A DNA stretch of 11,746 nucleotides from JAZDEY01 sp043808325 [NCBI: Candidatus Eiseniibacteriota bacterium]. Its GTDB lineage: Bacteria; Arandabacterota; Arandabacteria; Arandabacterales. Position 1 is the stretch's first letter. Every line of letters begins with the position of its first letter. The DNA lies in contig JAZDEY010000063.1 in NCBI GenBank assembly GCA_043808325.1, positions 1 through 11,746 of the forward strand, written 5' to 3'. The notes below the pieces were generated by a model that ran no database searches, was not told the DNA's origin, and saw only the letters and a list, made by a program, of their open reading frames with translations. The translations under genes were made by a program, and so were the position numbers. Shown piece after piece: positions 2,326 through 11,746 of the stretch.

Positions 2326-2748
2326 CTAGTCCAGGAATACGAGGATCTTCCGTTGGAGGTCGAGAATGATGCACTTGTTCTCGCTGTCCCATACCCCGGT
2401 GTCGTGGAAGAATGCCGTGGGCGAGCAATAACCGACCTTGATCACGTCAGCTTTGGGGAAGAAGGAGGTAACCTCCAATGGAATGTAGGACTTGCCGGTT
2501 GCGGATGGCGCGTTGAAGCTTATGTTGAACTGAGATTCCTCTGTGTACGCCGACACGCAGCACAGGAAAGCCACCGCCTTGTTGACGCGGTCCTCCTTTA
2601 TGGTCAGCGTGAGGATCTCGCAGAGCTCGTCCAGTGAGAGTGGCCGGAATTCCTGCCGCCCAACGGCCCTTCGTTCTTGCACTCGCGCTTCCACCTTGAC
2701 ATCTTCTTCCAACTTCTCGAATTCATCTTCAAACGCCTTGTCGTTCAC
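2326..2748 (-). CDS. P-loop ATPase, N-terminal fragment ending at in-frame TAG
   Basis: N-terminal 140 residues of a P-loop ATPase typical of integrative elements and prophages, probably a helicase-like or DNA-handling factor that works with the primase-type protein just upstream. The Walker A is FNAPSATGKSY (Gly85, Lys86, Ser87). The Walker B is ILVFLD, with Asp140 as the last residue before TAG at 2328-2326. The acidic, helical residues 1-50 look like an interaction segment. I chose GTG at 2748, which has AAGGGGG about nine bases upstream and overlaps the primase-like gene by 20 bases; an in-frame ATG at 2823 would overlap it by 95. Alone this product lacks the second half of its ATPase fold and should be inactive. 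See the C-terminal fragment at 1438-2313. Confidence 0.78.
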   Translation of the reverse strand: MNDKAFEDEFEKLEEDVKVEARVQERRAVGRQEFRPLSLDELCEILTLTIKEDRVNKAVAFLCCVSAYTEESQFNISFNAPSATGKSYIPLEVTSFFPKADVIKVGYCSPTAFFHDTGVWDSENKCIILDLQRKILVFLD

Positions 2749-3586
2749 TGTCTCTGCCCCCTTGTGCCAAGTAGGCGATGGCCTGCTTGAAGTTGTAGCC
2801 GAAGCGAAGCCTGATAAACTCAATGGAATCGCCGCTCTTCTGACAGCCGTAACAGCGGAACCTATTCTTATCCGGGTAAATGACCAGCGAGGGGTGCTTA
2901 TCGCTATGGAACGGGCAGCGAGCTACGTAGTGTTTCCCGGCCTTCTTAGTTTCGAGGACACCGGACATCACATCGAGGATCGGCACCTGCCTTGCCCTGG
3001 CGACTCTCTCGTCGTAGTCAAGGTCAAGGCCGTCGTGGTCCTCAACGCCGAAGATTCGGGCGGCAACCCGCTTCAGCCGCTTCAATCGCGCCACTTGCCC
3101 GAGGGCCTCCTTGAGCTGCCGTGCCGCTGGCGATATCTTCAGGACTTCTGTGCAAAACCACCTTGACCATTCATCCTCGATCTGCCTGATCTCATTCAGA
3201 GCGTCCTTTATCCCCCTGCGGGACTCCCGCACCACACCCAGCCACTCAGCAATCTTGTCATCGAGGAGGTGCTGCGCTTCGAGGTTCGATGGGAAGAAGA
3301 TTCGGATGAGATCCTCTGCAGCCGGGTAAGGCAGCGAAGGGGTCCTTGCAGGCAGCAAATCGTCTTCGTTAGAGTCCCAATCAGGGGTGGCTGGATCTTG
3401 TATGCCCCGTCCCATCGTGCTCTCAGGAAACCGCCGCTCGTCTTCCGGTAAGCAAGTCCCTAACTCAGATCCCGTGGCACCCACTGTTTCTTGTTGACAA
3501 TCCAGCCAGTGATCGCCTACTAGTAGATTGGAGGCTGAGGGAATCCGATAGGCATCTGAAACGCTGTGGGGCGTTGACTTTGTCAT
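2729..3586 (-). CDS. CHC2 zinc-finger primase-like protein
   Basis: Carries the DnaG-type zinc-binding domain that recognises single-stranded template DNA during primer synthesis. In the 285-aa product from ATG 3586 the finger spans about 205-275, with ligands Cys224, His227, Cys245 and Cys248 in ARCPFHSDKHPSL and FRCYGCQKSGDSIEF. The following GYNFKQAIAYLA is the usual helix after the finger. No TOPRIM catalytic domain follows, so it is either a primase accessory or an element-specific replication protein. The first 80 residues look disordered, and 90-200 is helical. ATG 3586 has AAGG eight bases upstream; a TTG five codons earlier is less likely. The gene overlaps the P-loop ATPase, as expected for a primase/ATPase pair. 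The preceding 124-aa frame ends in TAG and lies in the same frame only seven codons away. Confidence 0.85.
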   Translation of the reverse strand: MTKSTPHSVSDAYRIPSASNLLVGDHWLDCQQETVGATGSELGTCLPEDERRFPESTMGRGIQDPATPDWDSNEDDLLPARTPSLPYPAAEDLIRIFFPSNLEAQHLLDDKIAEWLGVVRESRRGIKDALNEIRQIEDEWSRWFCTEVLKISPAARQLKEALGQVARLKRLKRVAARIFGVEDHDGLDLDYDERVARARQVPILDVMSGVLETKKAGKHYVARCPFHSDKHPSLVIYPDKNRFRCYGCQKSGDSIEFIRLRFGYNFKQAIAYLAQGGRDSERQGV

Positions 3587-3607
3587 CGGTTCTACCTTCA
3601 ACTTCCT

Positions 3608-4380: not shown

Positions 4381-5343
4381 TTACGCCCCAAATCGCTCGG
4401 TCCACCAAGCCGGACAGGTTCGCTTCCACTCGCTCATGAAGTCATCAACGGCGCGCTCCACCGGACGCATGGCGGCTGGGTCCCTCCGCATCTCTTGCAC
4501 TCGCGACCTCACCTTGTTCTTGAGGTCCCACCTGTCCGGTATCTGGTCGGTATTCGGTATCCCCCGTGCGCCCTCACTCAGAATGAGCGTAGGGAAACTC
4601 TCGAATCCCGCGAAGTGGAGCAGACGGGGGAGGACTCCCCAGTGAGGCTTGCCTGTGCTCCGCATGAAGTACTCATGCAGCTTTGCTGCGACCAAGCCCC
4701 AGTCATCCTTCTTGGCCTTACCGCTTTTCTTCCTGCCGATGACATCAGTCTTCCTGTACAGAGGCTTCTGCCCAGGCTCCGACTTGAGGGTCCAACCGGG
4801 CTCGTGCAGATTGAGATCCTCGATGACAGCCAAGAACTCATGCACGTTCTTGGCTGTCTCAATCCCCCGCTGGCAGACCTTCACGAACGGGTCGAACTCC
4901 GGCGATCCGTAGTAGTTGGCAACAAGTGAAGTGATGGGAAAGCCTCCGAATTCTGAGAGAAACTTGTCCGCCTTTCTTAGAGAGTTCATGCCACGTCGCC
5001 AGTAGTTGTAAGACGAGAGCTTTCTCCAATCCGACGTGCTCTTCGTCTCCCATTGCCCATCGCCACGCATCAGTATGCCTTCGAACATGAGGCAGATGAT
5101 CACATGGGGACTGACACCCTGCTCCGCGAGAGCCTTGAGATCCTCTGCCGCTTCCTTCGCGAATCGCTCAAAGCGGTTATAGACCCCATGGAAGGGACTG
5201 TCAGGCCGGCTCTCCACCCGCTTGAACCAGTCGGCATAGTAGGCCAGCCCAGCCGCGACCACATCTCTTATGTCATCTGCACCTTCAGACTTCTCGGCGA
5301 CCGATGCAGACACCTTGTCCTTAGAAGCTGCATGCCTTCTCAT
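4381..5343 (-). CDS. 320-aa uncharacterised protein
   Basis: I do not recognise a family. The protein is soluble, with no signal peptide or membrane segment. Residues 25-115 are helical (VVAAGLAYYADWFKRVE; HGVYNRFERFAKEAAEDLKA). The centre (about 120-200) has many aromatics and ends near VHEFLAVIEDLNLHEPGW. A Lys-rich linker (GRKKSGKAKKDD) leads to KLHEYFMRSTGKPHWGVLPR, which resembles a small helical DNA- or protein-interaction module. ATG 5343 has a weak GGTGGTG before it. It follows the 228-aa gene by 42 bases and precedes the terminator, so the two form one transcription unit driven from 6144. The frame is the same as that of the upstream gene and separated from it only by two TAG codons. 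Position next to a restriction-modification-like operon suggests an accessory or independent defence role, but this is inference from place alone. Confidence 0.8.
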   Translation of the reverse strand: MRRHAASKDKVSASVAEKSEGADDIRDVVAAGLAYYADWFKRVESRPDSPFHGVYNRFERFAKEAAEDLKALAEQGVSPHVIICLMFEGILMRGDGQWETKSTSDWRKLSSYNYWRRGMNSLRKADKFLSEFGGFPITSLVANYYGSPEFDPFVKVCQRGIETAKNVHEFLAVIEDLNLHEPGWTLKSEPGQKPLYRKTDVIGRKKSGKAKKDDWGLVAAKLHEYFMRSTGKPHWGVLPRLLHFAGFESFPTLILSEGARGIPNTDQIPDRWDLKNKVRSRVQEMRRDPAAMRPVERAVDDFMSEWKRTCPAWWTERFGA

Positions 5344-5385: not shown

Positions 5386-6072
5386 CTATCCGCGAAGGAG
5401 GTAACGAACGAACCGGGTTCCCAGGGGAGTCAGATGAAGCGGGTAGTTGCCGTAATTCTCTGTGGCTGCCACAGGCAAGGAGCGGAGGTGCATTAGATTC
5501 ATCGAATTCAGTTCCCCGACGAGCCCCATCAGCAGGTGAGGATCTGTATGTTTCATTTCCTGCTGCAATCTTCCGAAATCGATTCGATACGGGCTCCTAT
5601 CGAGGTTCTTCATGCCATCTCGCTCAGCGACGGCCACAGCGTGTCCCAGTGCATCGATGGCCCCGATGGAAAGTATCTCTAGACAACGGGCAAAATGGTC
5701 CAGCTCAGTGTAGGTCAACTTATCAGGATCGTTCGGCTTGAGGAGAGTATTGGCCACAAGAGCCGCCGAAGCTCTCAGCTTGCTTTCCTTCTGTGTCCGA
5801 CCAACGATCACCACGAAGGACTTGAATATCTCCGCGAATTCATCTTTGTCAATTAACTCGACATCGATTCTATCGTTCAGCTCCCGGAGCCTTCTCCCCA
5901 GATCGTCGAACGCCTTCCGAAAAGCCTTCTCCGTAGCCGATGGGATGTAATCGTCGATAAGGTTCGCGATCGGACCACCAACCCACGGCACTGCAGAAAC
6001 TGTCGCCTTGCAGATTGCCAAGATGTGATCGGCCCTAGTCTTCCTCACAAGGCTCTTTTCGTCACTCGCCAC
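5386..6072 (-). CDS. 228-aa uncharacterised helical protein (PWVGGP-type)
   Basis: Unknown function. About 20-45 residues in is AVPWVGGPIANLIDDYIP followed by a helix-rich segment, EKAFRKAFDDLGRRLRELND. This Pro-Gly-Gly turn plus long helices recalls a widespread group of uncharacterised bacterial proteins sometimes found near defence genes; I cannot name the family. The segment around AICKATVSAVPWVGG is hydrophobic but too short to call a membrane anchor. The C-terminus has LHLTPLGTRFVRYLLRG, a winged-helix-like ending. The frame opens at TTG 6144, but that codon is the -35 box of the promoter, so translation must start further in. GTG 6072 with GGAAAG and GAAGGA upstream is the first good choice. 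It ends in TAG. First gene of a two-gene unit with the 320-aa protein. Confidence 0.8.
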   Translation of the reverse strand: MASDEKSLVRKTRADHILAICKATVSAVPWVGGPIANLIDDYIPSATEKAFRKAFDDLGRRLRELNDRIDVELIDKDEFAEIFKSFVVIVGRTQKESKLRASAALVANTLLKPNDPDKLTYTELDHFARCLEILSIGAIDALGHAVAVAERDGMKNLDRSPYRIDFGRLQQEMKHTDPHLLMGLVGELNSMNLMHLRSLPVAATENYGNYPLHLTPLGTRFVRYLLRG

Positions 6073-6115
6073 GGCGCTTTCCGTTCCTTCGTTGGAAGCG
6101 ACAAGACCATAGGCC

Positions 6116-6144
6116 AGTATAGTCCCGAGCTGAGTCCCTGTCAA
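6116..6144 (-). promoter_or_regulatory. Near-consensus sigma-70 promoter for the 228-aa/320-aa operon
   Basis: TTGACA (6144-6139) and TATACT (6121-6116) are separated by exactly 17 bases. The -35 is a perfect match and the -10 matches five of six consensus positions. Transcription would begin near 6108, leaving about 36 bases of leader before GTG 6072. This promoter separates the unknown two-gene unit from the nuclease operon upstream and rules out the TTG at 6144 as the start codon. Confidence 0.85.
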
Positions 6145-6386: not shown

Positions 6387-6734
6387 TTATACAGTCGCCA
6401 AGACATACTCCATATTCCGCTGCTTGCACCATATCTCGGCCGCTTTTCGCTTCCGCTGCACGTCGTTAGAGTCCACGCGGCTTGGGTCTTTCACCTCCAC
6501 GATGACCTTCCGGCCGCCTTCGTATTCGACAAGAAAGTCCGGCACATATCGGCGCTGATGCTTCTGCCCGTCAATCCATGGGATTGTGATGCCGTGCCGC
6601 TTCATCCACTTCACGACGTGCGGATCGCGCTCCAGCCGATCCATCATCCGACGTTCCAAGCCACTTTGGAACCTCTCGAAGCTCCAGGGGCTTTTCTTAG
6701 GGTTCTCATACGTACCATGTATGCTAATCGCCAT
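6387..6734 (-). CDS. TnsA-like PD-(D/E)xK nuclease, stand-alone
   Basis: A 115-aa protein with the layout of the TnsA N-terminal nuclease domain, expected to cut DNA with metal ions. Glu27 lies in FQSGLERRM, followed by DRLERDPHVVKW. The core is RRYVPDFLVEYEGGRKVIVE with Asp66, then Glu80 and Lys82 in VEVKDPS, and the closing helix KAAEIWCKQRNMEYVLAT. These supply E...D...ExK. ATG 6734 has GGGGAT about eight bases upstream and overlaps the helicase stop by 11 bases, giving tight translational coupling. The helicase of this operon lacks the C-terminal nuclease domain of usual type III Res subunits, so this small protein is probably the missing cutting subunit. It could also be an independent nuclease; no other TnsA-TnsB-TnsC type transposition genes are near. 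Confidence 0.82.
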   Translation of the reverse strand: MAISIHGTYENPKKSPWSFERFQSGLERRMMDRLERDPHVVKWMKRHGITIPWIDGQKHQRRYVPDFLVEYEGGRKVIVEVKDPSRVDSNDVQRKRKAAEIWCKQRNMEYVLATV

Positions 6735-8739
6735 ATTCAATGATCCCCGCTATCAGTCCGGGAGTGGCCCCGACCTTGGTCTTCATCTGCCGGAGCATTT
6801 TCCAGGCGAAATTGACTTCCTCGCGTTCAGCCAATCCCAGCGAAGAACCGTTAAGGAACTTCTTACGCACATGATGAACAAGCGCACTGTAAACTCGGTC
6901 CTTAAAGGCTGCCGCACAACCGGCTTCAACAGTTAGATCCTCTGCTATTTCCAGCATGCCCACCTTTACCGCGTCCCGGATTGCCTCGTCCGACACTTGA
7001 AGACCCGCCTCGGTGGGAGCAGAAGGATCGGGTGCCGAGTGGATCGTTTTCCAGCCGTCTTTACCGAGTTCCTGGCCGACCACGCCGGAGATGCCCAATT
7101 TCGTAATCTCAATCGCCGTGGGGTCGTACTCGATTGCGTCCAATGCCGCTTGCCAGTTCTTCAGCGGTTGGGGTGGCGGGCCGAAGTCACCCAGGACAAA
7201 CGGGTGGTCATCCACAACGGACGGATCGACCGGCGGCAGATCAATCACAAGGTCGGCGTTAGCGAACTCCTGCTTGGGCGGCGGCGGCGGAAGGTCTTCT
7301 GTCTCGTCATACACGTCCTCAATCAGAACGCCCTCGCGCTTCCGGGCGTTCAAGATGTCCCAAAGCCATTGATGTTCGAGCTTGGGATGATCCACTATGG
7401 AGCAGACTTGAGGCTCCGTCGGCTCGACGCCTTTCACCCGAACCCGGCGCAGGCCGCGCCCGATGACCTGTTGTCCATATACCGTCGAACCGAACTTGCG
7501 CAGCAACAGGATCACGCCCACCTCGGGTACGTCCCAGCCCTCGCGCAGCATCAGCACGCTGACCACGGCCTTGTAAGGCTTGCCGGACTTCTGTTGTCTG
7601 CCCAATTCACGCGCTTTCTGTCGGTCTTCCTCGTCGCTGTCTTCCGTGACAAGCAGTGTCTTCATCTTGAAGTACGTGTTCAGTGTGTTTGCGGCTTTTT
7701 CCGCGTCTGCTTTGCATACCGCGACCACAAACAGAATAGGCTGATACCGTCCTTTGGCCCGCCGCTCCTGCTCCTCCAATCGGCGCAGCGCAATCGCCAT
7801 CTGCTGACGCATCGGTTCATCATCCGTCACCCATTGCGTTGCGCTAAGACCGAGCCGGTCCACCTCGTCCCAGTTAATCTCTTCCACTTTGCGCTTCTCG
7901 CCCGTCCGGGCGTCGGTATAGGTAAGCTGCACCGTCTTGATGTCCGGTTGATACACCACGGGCGTGGCAATGAGCCCGTCGGCCAACGCGTCCGCCACGC
8001 CGTATTCAAAGATCATATCGCTATCGGGCGTCCTCCCGTCGGCGCGGTCGGGCGTTGCTGTCGTGTCCAACCGTAAAACGACCTTCTCGCGCATCCGCGA
8101 TAGCGTCGCCTCGTATTCCGGCGCGGGGGAGTTGTGCGCCTCATCGTTGAACAGGGCGAAATCCGGTCCGTTCATCAGCGCTGACAGATTGCTCTGCCCG
8201 CTCTTGTTGCTCTGGTAAAACTGATGGATGTTGCCCAGGATAACGCTCGCGCTGAGCAAGCTCGACCAGCCACCCTCCTTGCCGCTGCCCAGCGTGGTCA
8301 GGTCGAACTCGCCAACCGCGGAAGCCCAACCAGGAATCAAATCGCGGTCCTTGAAAACTTTGCCGCCCTGAAAGTCATCCTCCAGGCGGTCCCGGACGAT
8401 CAGATTGGGGCACAGCAGCACGAACTTCTGGACGCTATGCGCAATGCGCAGCCAGGCGATTACCGCTGCGATTACCGCCGTCTTGCCACCGCCCGTAACG
8501 ACATTAAGAAGCATCCCGTCCGCGCCGATTTCAGCCTTGCCAAGAATCTCGTGCGCATACACCACCCGTAGAAACGATTCCCACTGGTGAGGCCATAGCG
8601 TCCCGGACCGCGCCGCCTGGTCGTCGTCGGGTGAGGTCAAGAATTCGATGTACTTGTACGATTCCGCCTTCAGGCCAGGCATCCCATCCCGTCGCCAGTC
8701 GTGGAAAGCATCCTCGTATCGTGCGAACTGGTTGAACAT
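6724..8739 (-). CDS. DEAH-box helicase, type III restriction Res-like
   Basis: A 671-aa superfamily 2 helicase/translocase like the Res subunit of type III restriction systems. Visible motifs: GTLWPHQWESF (46-56, Q-type region), Walker A NVVTGGGKT (79-87), LLCPNLIVRDRLEDD (motif Ia), DEAH 199-202 in FNDEAHN, TATP 227-230, LREGWDVPEVGVI (398-410), and QVIGRGLRRVR (424-434) with the arginine fingers. A proline run at 484-488 joins the motor to a C-terminal region (about 520-671) with a helical, SNF2-unlike coupler and no visible PD-(D/E)xK motif. ATG 8739 follows the methyltransferase stop by only four bases. It ends in TAG, overlapping the small nuclease gene. It should unwind or translocate on DNA and bring methyltransferase-recognised sites to the separate nuclease. 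Family call firm; exact system type inferred. Confidence 0.93.
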   Translation of the reverse strand: MFNQFARYEDAFHDWRRDGMPGLKAESYKYIEFLTSPDDDQAARSGTLWPHQWESFLRVVYAHEILGKAEIGADGMLLNVVTGGGKTAVIAAVIAWLRIAHSVQKFVLLCPNLIVRDRLEDDFQGGKVFKDRDLIPGWASAVGEFDLTTLGSGKEGGWSSLLSASVILGNIHQFYQSNKSGQSNLSALMNGPDFALFNDEAHNSPAPEYEATLSRMREKVVLRLDTTATPDRADGRTPDSDMIFEYGVADALADGLIATPVVYQPDIKTVQLTYTDARTGEKRKVEEINWDEVDRLGLSATQWVTDDEPMRQQMAIALRRLEEQERRAKGRYQPILFVVAVCKADAEKAANTLNTYFKMKTLLVTEDSDEEDRQKARELGRQQKSGKPYKAVVSVLMLREGWDVPEVGVILLLRKFGSTVYGQQVIGRGLRRVRVKGVEPTEPQVCSIVDHPKLEHQWLWDILNARKREGVLIEDVYDETEDLPPPPPKQEFANADLVIDLPPVDPSVVDDHPFVLGDFGPPPQPLKNWQAALDAIEYDPTAIEITKLGISGVVGQELGKDGWKTIHSAPDPSAPTEAGLQVSDEAIRDAVKVGMLEIAEDLTVEAGCAAAFKDRVYSALVHHVRKKFLNGSSLGLAEREEVNFAWKMLRQMKTKVGATPGLIAGIIEYGD

Positions 8740-8743
8740 GCGG

Positions 8744-10570
8744 TCAGGTTACCTCGATCTCGGCGGTCCACAGGCCTTCACCGCCCATGTCATCCTGCAC
8801 CTTGCAGGCAATGCGCTTCTTTCCTGCCGCGGGGAACTCGTATTCCGCCTGCAACTCCGGCTCCTTCGTCGCGCCGCGCACAAACGAATATCCCGGCGTG
8901 CTCGAAAAGCGCTTCCCAAAATCAAAATCCCACTGCACGTTGATAATCTTTGCCCCCGCGTTCATCACCGCCGTTTCGCTCACGTCGAACCGGAAAGTGC
9001 ATCTAGCGATGCGCTTGTAGCCCACCTCGACCTTCGGCGGCTGCACAAAGGTCAGGAAGTTTTCGTAGTCGGCGTTGTCGGTCGAGAGCGCCGCCACGTG
9101 CTCGCGGAAGGGCGGCGAGTCGATGCGGACCTGGTCAAGCCGGATGAAATTGAGGTCCGTCTGCTCCAAACGGCGCAACCGCTCAGCTGCGTCCATCGCA
9201 TCCTGCCGGAACGCCCACGCCAGCATGATCCCGTCGCGCAGGTTATCCTGCTTATAACGCAGCGTCTTACGGATGGTATTGGCGAAGTCCTGCACGTCCT
9301 GCGCCGAGACGCCCTTCTTGGGGTTAGGCTCGCCCACCCAGACGGGAACCGCGCCTTTCATTCCGTGGATACCTGTCTGATGTTCCTCATCCACCGCGCC
9401 GAAGCATTTGAGGACGAAGGCGCGGAACTGCTCGGGCGGCATGTCTGAAAGTCGCCGCGTTTCGTACACGCCCCAATGCTCGACAGTGAAGTCCGGCACA
9501 GGGAACAGCTTGCCCGTCTGCTCCCAGATTTGCCGCGTCAGCCGGTCCGCCATGATCGCCACCGCCACCCGCGACTGGTCGCAGGCAATCCAGCGCCGCT
9601 CCAGCCGTTGAGCCACAGCCACAGTTGTCCCGCCACCGCAGAAGAAGTCGGCAACCACGTCCCCTTTAGACGAGTGGCCGCGAATCACTCGCTCAAGAAC
9701 TGCCTCTGGCTTTTGCGTGGGATAGCCGATCCACTCCTTCGAATGATTCGGTGGTCGCGAGATGTCCCATACGCTTCCTGCGACTTTTCCCTTTTCATTG
9801 AAGAGTTCGCGGCGTGACTCGGCGATGATCGCATCATATGCGATTCTCACTTCATCCGTGTTGAAGGTGTAGCCCGAGGCTGCGCGCGTGTACCACAGGA
9901 TGACATCGTGCTTTCTGCCGTACCTGTGCTTGCTTCCCCCGCCGGACCTGTAAGACCAGATAATCTCGTTCTGAAGAAGTTCGTACCCGAATATCTTGTC
10001 TAGCTCAATCTTGATGTAGTGGCTTGCGTGTAGGTCGCAGTGAACCATCAGACTGCCCGTCTTCCTAAGCAGCCTCTTCATCTCATACAGCCGGGCATTG
10101 AGCCAGATGAGGTAGCCGGGCATCCCGCCTTCCCAGATGTCGGAGAAGGAGCGCAGTTCGTTCTGGTCACCGAAGATGACATTATATTGCCGTCCGGAAA
10201 AGAACGGCGGGTCAATGTAGATGAGGTCAATGCTCTCGCTGGGTAGTTGGCGCATCACGTGCAGGTTGTCACCCCAGAGCAGGCGGTTTGGTTCCAGTTC
10301 AGGATGCCCAAACTGGACGCGCTCGACCACCTGGAATGGCAGCATGACCTGGGGAAAGAGTTTGCGGAAGCCCTTGCGCCGATCCCAGCCCAGCGGCTCC
10401 TTCTCAACCGGCACGCTGCCGAAACGCGTCGGCGGTCGCCAGAACTCCTCCTGCGCGGGTAGAGCGTCCGTCCGCTCGTCCCGATCCACGACCTCGGGGG
10501 GTGAAATGAAATCGCCCTTCACAGGACCGGTGGTCGGTTTGTCCTTTTCTTCGCTGTCTTTCTTTGCCAT
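8744..10570 (-). CDS. Beta-class site-specific DNA methyltransferase (Mod-like) with C-terminal extension
   Basis: A 608-aa N6-adenine or N4-cytosine methyltransferase. The catalytic motif DPPF (120-123, in IYIDPPFFSG) precedes the AdoMet motif FFCGGGTT (309-316), the order of the beta class; TQKPEAVLERVI (285-296) is motif X. Residues 124-280 should hold target recognition. About 370-480 (QFRAFVLKCFGA, IHGMKGAVPVWVG, VSAQDVQDFA) resembles a degenerate Mrr-like fold without a clear catalytic set. The last 100 residues (WDFDFGKRF, YEFPAAGKKRIACKVQDDMG) read like a PKD/Ig-type beta-sandwich, unusual for a cytoplasmic methyltransferase. The first 50 residues look disordered. ATG 10570 has GAAGGGA eight bases upstream. 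First gene of the operon, with helicase and nuclease after it. It is expected to mark host DNA and supply specificity to the complex. Confidence 0.93.
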   Translation of the reverse strand: MAKKDSEEKDKPTTGPVKGDFISPPEVVDRDERTDALPAQEEFWRPPTRFGSVPVEKEPLGWDRRKGFRKLFPQVMLPFQVVERVQFGHPELEPNRLLWGDNLHVMRQLPSESIDLIYIDPPFFSGRQYNVIFGDQNELRSFSDIWEGGMPGYLIWLNARLYEMKRLLRKTGSLMVHCDLHASHYIKIELDKIFGYELLQNEIIWSYRSGGGSKHRYGRKHDVILWYTRAASGYTFNTDEVRIAYDAIIAESRRELFNEKGKVAGSVWDISRPPNHSKEWIGYPTQKPEAVLERVIRGHSSKGDVVADFFCGGGTTVAVAQRLERRWIACDQSRVAVAIMADRLTRQIWEQTGKLFPVPDFTVEHWGVYETRRLSDMPPEQFRAFVLKCFGAVDEEHQTGIHGMKGAVPVWVGEPNPKKGVSAQDVQDFANTIRKTLRYKQDNLRDGIMLAWAFRQDAMDAAERLRRLEQTDLNFIRLDQVRIDSPPFREHVAALSTDNADYENFLTFVQPPKVEVGYKRIARCTFRFDVSETAVMNAGAKIINVQWDFDFGKRFSSTPGYSFVRGATKEPELQAEYEFPAAGKKRIACKVQDDMGGEGLWTAEIEVT

Positions 10571-11260: not shown

Positions 11261-11445
11261 CCCTTTTCCGCCCTTTCGCTTCTCGACAAGGTTGCCTGCA
11301 CTTTTTTCATCTCCTTCAAGAGTTCCTTCTTGGTGATGATACCCTTACGGTCGAGCAGATTGATCAGGGCATCCGACTGAATAACCTCAGACATGAGCAG
11401 TTCCCGGAGATCGACGATTTCGCTGGGATCGAGTTGCTCAGCCAT
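11257..11445 (-). CDS. 62-aa uncharacterised small helical protein
   Basis: A small, mostly helical protein of unknown function with no membrane segment. The pattern EIVDLRELLMSEVIQSDALI followed by LLDRKGIITKKELLKEM is familiar from small uncharacterised proteins of anaerobic proteobacteria-like genomes, but I cannot name the family. The GIITKKEL turn resembles the short helix-turn-helix motif of SHOCT-like peptides. ATG 11445 has GAGGGG about six bases upstream and overlaps the thermonuclease stop by eight bases; its own stop overlaps the next start. These junctions make co-translation with its neighbours very likely. Confidence 0.75.
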   Translation of the reverse strand: MAEQLDPSEIVDLRELLMSEVIQSDALINLLDRKGIITKKELLKEMKKVQATLSRSERAEKG

Positions 11446-11746
11446 TGCCGCCCCTCACCTTCAATCGTTTCCGAAAATCATTCGGCCTCTCATATCCTGG
11501 TAACGACCAGATTCCTCTCCTTGCGGATCTTGCTTCCTTCTCCGCCCGAATAAACTGTGCTCGATAGGGTTCCTTCAGATATTCAAGATAGGCTTCGGCA
11601 TATCCCTCTTTAACCATCTCCAGGTTGATATTCCTGTTGCCGATCCAGATCACTCCCACCATGCGTTTGTAGCGGTCAATGTCGATGATGTCCAGCCTGA
11701 CCTGCTTCCCCATGATTTTGGCTTCCAGTGCCTTCCATGACTCTTC
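11438..11746 (-). CDS. Thermonuclease (SNase family), 5' end outside window
   Basis: C-terminal part of a calcium-dependent nuclease of the staphylococcal nuclease family, which degrades DNA and RNA. The frame is open to the right edge (EESWKALEAKI before Met at 11713), so ATG 11713 is internal and the start is missing. Visible landmarks are VRLDIIDIDRYKRMVGVIW, with the Arg that matches catalytic Arg87 of the staphylococcal enzyme in its DxYxR context, NINLEMVKEGYAEAY, and AEKEARSARRGIWSLP, the usual closing helix and Trp. The two other catalytic residues would be upstream, outside the window. The tail RKRLKVRGGNG is basic. It is the first gene seen of the small-gene run and overlaps the next by eight bases. 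Confidence 0.88.
   Translation of the reverse strand, partial: EESWKALEAKIMGKQVRLDIIDIDRYKRMVGVIWIGNRNINLEMVKEGYAEAYLEYLKEPYRAQFIRAEKEARSARRGIWSLPGYERPNDFRKRLKVRGGNG

Follow-up and report, generated by a model that had tools for sequence, protein, structure and literature searches.

Type III restriction-modification (R-M) enzymes are described as Mod2Res1 assemblies in which helicase and nuclease lie in one Res polypeptide (PMC8259958, PMC4005696). They cut DNA in an ATP-dependent manner, 25-27 bp from one of two head-to-head sites, and methylate one strand (PMC3874151, PMC8259958). The locus described here occupies positions 6387-10570 of an 11,746-nucleotide stretch of DNA (contig JAZDEY010000063.1 of assembly GCA_043808325.1, from JAZDEY01 sp043808325), the whole of which is referred to as the window. 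It is similar to EcoPI and EcoP15I in having adjacent mod and res genes in the type III order, a beta-class Mod methyltransferase with a central variable recognition region, and a Res that is a superfamily 2 (SF2) motor, but the nuclease, which in those enzymes is within Res, is in the window a separate protein of 115 amino acids (aa), designated Nuc. In one defining feature the system departs from type III enzymes: its PD-(D/E)XK nuclease is not at the C terminus of the Res polypeptide and has an open reading frame (ORF) of its own. It shows the other features that could be tested. Very probably it is a three-subunit variant of type III R-M (Mod, motor, and nuclease) that was born of an old gene fission. 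No description of a type III system with a detached nuclease was found in the open-access literature, REBASE and closed journals lying outside the search.

The BPTD_3080 family (NF046055) and the PADLOC type III Res family PDLC03648 differ from the locus in that their members are single polypeptides spanning both halves; scored against NF046055, Res reaches 78.3 bits and Nuc 40.4 bits as compared with a cut-off of 800 over a 970-residue protein. The nuclease subunit of the CglI system is phospholipase-D-like, whereas Nuc has a predicted PD-(D/E)xK fold. Like the locus, CglI has separate motor and nuclease proteins, which belong to one ATP-dependent restriction complex, R2H2, but no type III Mod is named in its cutting complex in the accessible text (PMC5737866). 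The type III systems that form N4-methylcytosine (m4C) share with the locus DPPY/F Mods, a PD-(D/E)XK nuclease and, in some of them, a third gene; that gene, however, encodes a second helicase-like ATPase and lies 5' of mod, and Res keeps its nuclease at the C terminus (PMC8259958).

Separation of motor and nuclease

The features of the operon, all on the minus strand of the window, are as follows.

8744-10570, minus: Mod, beta-class DNA amino-methyltransferase of 608 aa; its target-recognition segment is central and variable, its C-terminal extension conserved
10202-10213, minus: Mod catalytic motif IV, D120-P-P-F123, invariant in 19 aligned copies
9728-9973, minus: Mod target-recognition segment, residues 200-281, hypervariable and apparently swapped among copies
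9629-9649, minus: Mod motif I, DFFCGGG, residues 308-314, which binds S-adenosylmethionine (AdoMet); D308, F310, and G312-G314 invariant in 19 copies
8740-8743, minus: gap of 4 bases between the Mod stop and the Res ATG, read from the sequence
6724-8739, minus: Res, SF2 helicase-like motor of 671 aa without a nuclease domain (Pfam ResIII, E 5.6e-14)
8479-8496, minus: Res Walker A, TGGGKT, residues 82-87, invariant in 29 copies
8134-8145, minus: Res Walker B or DEAH box, residues 199-202, invariant in 29 copies
7444-7470, minus: Res motif VI region, QVIGRGLRR, residues 424-432; Q424, V425, and G427-R431 invariant in 29 copies
6733-6990, minus: Res C-terminal bundle of four helices, residues 584-669 (AlphaFold2, block means of 78-92 for the predicted local distance difference test, pLDDT)
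6724-6734, minus: stretch shared by the start of Nuc (ATG) and the end of Res (stop codon), a putative site of translational coupling
6387-6734, minus: Nuc, stand-alone PD-(D/E)xK nuclease of 115 aa with a TnsA-like fold (Pfam, model, and alignment)
6537-6539, minus: Nuc D66, expected catalytic residue, invariant in 35 rows
6489-6497, minus: Nuc E80-x-K82, expected catalytic residues, invariant in 35 rows

The sequence and its ORFs place the genes in the order Mod (10570-8744), Res (8739-6724), and Nuc (6734-6387), with the 4-base gap at 8743-8740 and an 11-base overlap at 6734-6724 in which the Nuc ATG precedes the Res TAG; coordinates, order, and spacing are all as given in the original prediction for this DNA. 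Nuc has 115 aa when counted from the ATG at 6734, and the ORF version of 117 aa starts at an upstream TTG. In a Pfam scan the matches of all three proteins exceed the curated cut-offs, and the predicted type III-like R-M operon is borne out in its parts: a beta-class Mod (N6_N4_Mtase), a Res with a DEAH box (ResIII), and a separate Nuc.

The best Pfam match of Nuc is Tn7_TnsA-like_N (PF08722; E 1.1e-13, over the cut-off). Its structural model (pLDDT 91.3) predicts the PD-(D/E)xK arrangement, with D66 opening one strand and E80-x-K82 closing the strand that follows. Residues E20, E27, D66, E80, and K82 are invariant in 35 aligned copies, that is, in all of the 36 copies available (the window and 35 related loci with L-numbers, described below) except L032. 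The closest solved fold is that of TnsA (Foldseek E 4.1e-5), with Z 11.2 over 111-112 residues for TnsA structures and Z 6.5 for the best fold of another kind; a search of PDB sequences with the Nuc profile gave no match. Between the window and locus L001, Nuc has a nonsynonymous divergence (dN) of 0.067 and a synonymous divergence (dS) of 1.1, and it is under purifying selection. Its distances follow those of Res closely (r=0.96 in 24 copies, a value reached by none of 2000 permutations). The Nuc alignment (A1) holds 30 rows of the 36 copies, those of L002, L017, L024, L032, L033, and L034 being left out.

Res is related to type III Res proteins through its motor. NF046055 and PADLOC REase_III match it by their helicase part, type III Res profiles cover its motif VI region, and it matches EcoP15I Res with E 1.3e-5. 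The Foldseek matches of its model are RadD, EcoP15I Res, and further SF2 proteins. The 29-row alignment (A2) used for the residue counts is without L002, L017, L024, L026, L032, L033, and L034. The original prediction held that the C-terminal region of this protein carries no nuclease, and this stood up when such a domain was sought by four family libraries, by the Nuc profile, and by AlphaFold2. No nuclease was found in Res by the four libraries, whose listed stretches (the best per family) end by residue 451. With filters off, the Nuc profile gave a best whole-protein E of 0.026 among 31 split Res proteins, at residues 264-307, and beyond residue 440 only three 18-residue matches with E of at least 6.5. 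In the AlphaFold2 model the C terminus consists of a beta hairpin and an all-helical bundle, and no PD-(D/E)xK arrangement is present there. Going by this model, the bundle of residues 584-669 is a candidate docking surface for Nuc.

Conservation of the split and relation to fused Res proteins

A search with Res found 35 related loci, 33 in bacterial or archaeal genomes and two on viral contigs, with identities of 44 to 88% (best segment). Their record titles name Tabrizicola, Verrucomicrobiae, Chloroflexi, Planctomycetota, Nitrospirae, Armatimonadetes, Cyanobacteria, Acidobacteriota, and others; because nearly all of the records are titled as metagenome bins, individual taxon labels may be wrong. 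Some of the contigs are long (1.28 Mb for L017 and 3.0 Mb for L023). The gene set of the original prediction recurs in these genomes: a Nuc frame follows directly after Res, in another frame, in all 35 loci, and a whole or partial Mod lies upstream of Res in 30 of the 32 loci that have sequence there (30 of 35 overall). Loci L024, L026, and L033 start inside Res, L020 holds just 674 bases upstream of it, and in the remnant L032, which also is without Mod, Res is truncated and Nuc is stopped after 16 codons. A Nuc ATG is present at the end of Res in 36 of 36 copies. In 35 of them it precedes the final base of the Res stop by 10 or 13 bases, and in L029 stop and start are joined as TAATG. A further locus beyond the 35, L152, has a 4-base overlap of Res and Nuc.

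These junctions bear on two ways in which the separation might be only apparent. If an ordinary fused type III Res gene had been broken by a frameshift or a sequencing error, Res and Nuc would be expected to appear as they do, as overlapping ORFs that are out of frame with each other and together collinear with fused Res, and such a case probably exists elsewhere (L150, see below). The split is, however, common to 35 loci, each with a Nuc ATG at the Res stop, so it is not a sequencing slip; in addition, the junctions vary in geometry and frame, both halves are under purifying selection, and the split systems form one clade. We give this explanation almost no credence. Programmed ribosomal frameshifting, by which a Res-Nuc fusion would be made besides free Res, is favoured by the fact that 35 of 36 copies share the same +1 frame relation and overlap by 11 or 14 bases. 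It does not accord with L029, where TAATG places Nuc in another frame, with the 4-base overlap of L152, or with the retention of the ATG in all 36 copies, and no slippery sequence is evident by eye in the junctions. Since the geometry of the junction varies while the start codon is kept, Nuc appears to be translated separately, and a frameshifting mechanism is most improbable.

Fused relatives of the two proteins contain helicase and then nuclease in one ORF of ~820-1130 aa, and for 38 of the 40 that were used in trees the DNA retrieved around them also contains a Mod match, which in L180 is weak. Both NF046055 and PDLC03648 match Res by their helicase part and Nuc further on, at positions 858-943 and 739-829, respectively. 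In 39 fused proteins the spacing from helicase to nuclease is 247-264 residues (21 proteins) or 322-385 residues (18 proteins), and it is 260-270 residues when split Res and Nuc are laid end to end. The Nuc profile aligns weakly (9.6 bits) with residues 840-933 of EcoPI Res. In trees of 59 proteins, the 18 split systems form one clade, with support of 97/73 for Nuc and 100/100 for Res; the rows of the nuclease tree are split Nuc proteins and Res C termini, TnsA proteins not being among them. When the Res tree is rooted on the EcoPI Res of phage P1, the split clade (13 rows, 100/100) is nested in the fused proteins, and the branch uniting it with 17 fused relatives has support of 100/99. For this tree 14 of the 59 rows were dropped (two long-branched, L150 as an odd case, and 11 others) and EcoPI Res was included as outgroup. 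The polarity, split from fused, is the same for every root placed outside the split clade.

The resemblance of Nuc to TnsA, which formed part of the original prediction, holds for the fold and probably not for descent. Nuc is predicted to share the fold of the catalytic domain of Tn7 TnsA, but the TnsA chains have 260-264 residues as compared with 115 in Nuc, and the partner of Nuc is a Mod-Res pair. Against NF033179 the score is 41.8 bits, with 110 needed. None of the ten window ORFs scanned gave a transposase or TnsC match, and no neighbour apart from Mod and Res recurs in more than 4 of the 36 copies, antisense frames of Nuc aside. Nuc might nevertheless have been recruited from a TnsA-type transposition protein to join a helicase that had lost its own nuclease: TnsA is by far the best fold match as well as the best Pfam match, and stand-alone TnsA-like relatives with weak E-values exist elsewhere. 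Recruitment is very unlikely, as split Nuc forms a single clade among Res C termini (in the tree without TnsA proteins), spacing and order are collinear with fused Res, the rooted Res tree nests split in fused, and some fused Res C termini also match TnsA-like profiles, under the cut-offs. From the tree and the collinearity, therefore, Nuc most plausibly derives from the C-terminal nuclease of a type III Res, detached once, rather than from a recruited transposon protein. The split has been kept through long evolution across many bacterial phyla.

Several points weigh against the reading of the locus as a three-subunit type III variant made by fission. The outgroup branch in the rooted Res tree is long (4.41), and the tree tool flags meeting long branches, both of the outgroup with L158/L175 and of the fused group with the split group; the long-branch warning was given for both Res trees. 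The sister group of the split clade is weakly supported (87/61), and the polarity would be lost if the root fell on the split branch itself. The Res model is of moderate quality, with a mean pLDDT of 73.0 and low confidence across most of residues 497-581. Between Mod and Res there are ~0.7-1.8 kb in 7 of the 35 loci (L006, L009, L010, L017, L021, L028, and L029); the same applies to L153 and L156, outside the 35. Lastly, some copies are broken: the last 160 residues of Mod remain in L002, Mod is in two pieces in L009, L021, and L153, Res is frameshifted in L017, and Nuc is interrupted in L032.

Specificity, proposed mechanism, and relatives of Nuc elsewhere

The sole match of Mod over a Pfam cut-off is N6_N4_Mtase (E 1.6e-45), and in PADLOC it matches MTase_II/MTase_III. 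Its motifs occur in the order IV (120-123), variable segment (200-281), and I (308-314), which is that of the beta class. Six type III Mods of m4C systems are likewise assigned the motif DPPY/F (PMC8259958), so the DPPF of this protein does not tell methylation of adenine (m6A) from m4C. Of the 31 Mods found (30 loci and the window), 19 are in the alignment (A3), and among their 171 pairs the median identity is 0.23 in residues 200-281 and 0.72 in the core, with a correlation of r=0.16 between segment identity and core identity. Three pairs are closer in the segment than in the core: the window and L003 (0.98 versus 0.84), L007 and L030 (0.95 versus 0.78), and L010 and L016 (0.77 versus 0.72). 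It seems from the sequences that target-recognition segments have been exchanged between copies, so that Mod has the variable, exchangeable specificity region of type III systems. The mod genes of EcoP1 and EcoP15 have common ends and a differing central third (PMC3874151). As Res and Nuc are conserved while the recognition segment of Mod varies, Mod should determine the specificity of cutting, as it does in type III enzymes. A PKD-like stretch (PKD_4, E 0.004, under the curated cut-off) makes up the final 89 residues of Mod (window 8747-9013) and is conserved across the 19 aligned Mods.

By analogy with the type III family, a course of action can be proposed. Mod would recognize an asymmetric site through its exchangeable segment and methylate it; on an unmethylated site, Mod would recruit Res, an SF2 ATPase, and Res would bring the complex into a state in which it slides or translocates. 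Nuc, presumably synthesized close to Res through translational coupling, would dock on the C-terminal region of Res and supply the nuclease in trans, replacing the Res tail, and cutting would follow when two complexes meet. We infer ATP-driven communication between sites, the cutting site, docking of Nuc on Res, and a role in defense from the same analogy. A more tentative proposal, possible but doubtful, is that a dissociable Nuc associates with the Mod-Res motor at one particular step only, self-damage being limited by assembly, and that the locus represents a lasting, widespread three-subunit type III class whose cutting module could be studied or exchanged in trans.

In a different division of labor, Mod and Res would serve together in methylation or regulation, and Nuc would be an effector of its own, such as a nuclease that nicks DNA or causes abortive infection once activation sets it free. 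A free nuclease makes such control possible, but Nuc co-diverges closely with Res and no second close Nuc was found in 33 genomes; we consider this arrangement unlikely. The genome searches also concern the occurrence of the small nuclease away from the pair, which would have counted against the original prediction had it been frequent. Over the 33 locus-bearing genomes the Nuc profile gave one close match each (E 4e-41 or better), which must be the Nuc beside Res. A further 21 matches were weaker (E 2e-12 to 8e-5); long proteins account for most of them, with 15 in open frames of at least 450 aa. In four phylum samples centred on the genomes of L005, L009, L021, and L023 (301, 343, 201, and 296 genomes), the genomes with a close match (E 1.2e-30 or better) number 2, 2, 3, and 2, respectively; with the sample centres excluded, a close Nuc is present in 5 of 1137 genomes, one of the five (G013) being already known. 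Among 167 weaker matches listed in these samples, 136 lie in open frames of at least 450 aa, tallies of weak matches being lower bounds, as no more than 13-22 first-look candidates were scored in many genomes. The 31 shorter ones include genes that are broken or cut by contig ends as well as stand-alone proteins of ~150-270 aa, and for the stand-alone cousins L073, L113, L132, and L144 no Res match was found near by. In the genomes searched, then, distant stand-alone cousins of Nuc exist, and close ones away from Res were not seen.

Plasmid and phage records contain distant relatives. Twelve plasmid records have distant relatives of Res, with identities of up to 26.4%, and seven have distant relatives of Nuc, including three Acinetobacter proteins, two of which are named TnsA and the third a TnsA N-terminal-domain protein. 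Phages gave one weak match to Res.

The system, in all likelihood a type III variant with a detached nuclease, has some practical bearing. That motor and nuclease were kept apart through long evolution suggests that a covalent link between them is not needed. The locus is a natural case in which one can omit, titrate, or exchange the nuclease, so that recognition, ATP-driven communication, and cutting could be measured separately. Annotation based on domains will label Nuc "TnsA-like" and may miss the system. With its apparently swapped Mod segments, the clade also offers new methylation specificities.

Neighbouring genes and minor observations

No conserved fourth gene accompanies the three genes: antisense frames of Nuc aside, other neighbours occur in at most 4 of the 36 copies. 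The commonest of these clusters (4 of 36 copies) is a sugar-nucleotide epimerase family, of which two members were scanned. Genes of the HsdS/HsdM type do not recur among the neighbours of the 36 copies, and the HsdS and HsdM pairing that characterizes type I R-M is not found here. The inserts between Mod and Res are of several kinds. Toxin-antitoxin-like pairs are present in L006:4258-5993 (an IrrE-like protein and a DUF4411 protein) and in L021:4729-5980 (a 261-aa protein of no known kind and a PIN protein). L028:4312-5936 encodes a 296-aa protein without a Pfam match together with DUF5131, L029:4654-5976 encodes GIY-YIG and Bro-N, and L009:5397-5855 encodes a PDDEXK_3 protein.

At L150:361-2944 a BPTD_3080-type Res lies in two overlapping ORFs, with ~85 profile positions missing; this unrelated second case is probably decay or, alternatively, a second split. 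In the genome of L002 (G002), at L065, a 30-residue Nuc-like piece (2329-2418) is located near a Mod remnant (776-1780; profile positions 413-618, E 3e-92), and the two are perhaps what is left of a decayed second copy. Two plasmid-borne fused relatives, L036:1-4096 and L037:235-3096, have an SNF2-like gene upstream of Mod, with one extra gene between the two in L036; these SNF2-like genes resemble the third gene described for some m4C type III systems (PMC8259958). A Leptospira plasmid encodes a Res-related helicase of 632 aa (L038:4902-7148) without a match to the Nuc profile, next to a caspase-family gene and a 110-aa protein of no recognized kind.

For the window, no tRNA genes, no Rfam matches at gathering scores, and no near match of the whole stretch to plasmids were found, and a promoter scan, with 4 sites as compared with 2.7 expected by chance, was not informative. 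Directly downstream of Nuc is a 252-aa ORF (5386-6144) that matches phrog_26838, a family of unknown function (E 1.6e-6), and the next on that side is a 320-aa ORF (4381-5343) without a family match. An ORF at 2729-3601 has a DnaG-type zinc finger (E 3.3e-22), and after it come two ORFs (165 and 291 aa) that have no Pfam match; the three are perhaps the replication module of a mobile element. Upstream of the operon, at 11438-11713, there is a Staphylococcal-nuclease-like ORF (SNase, E 2e-18).

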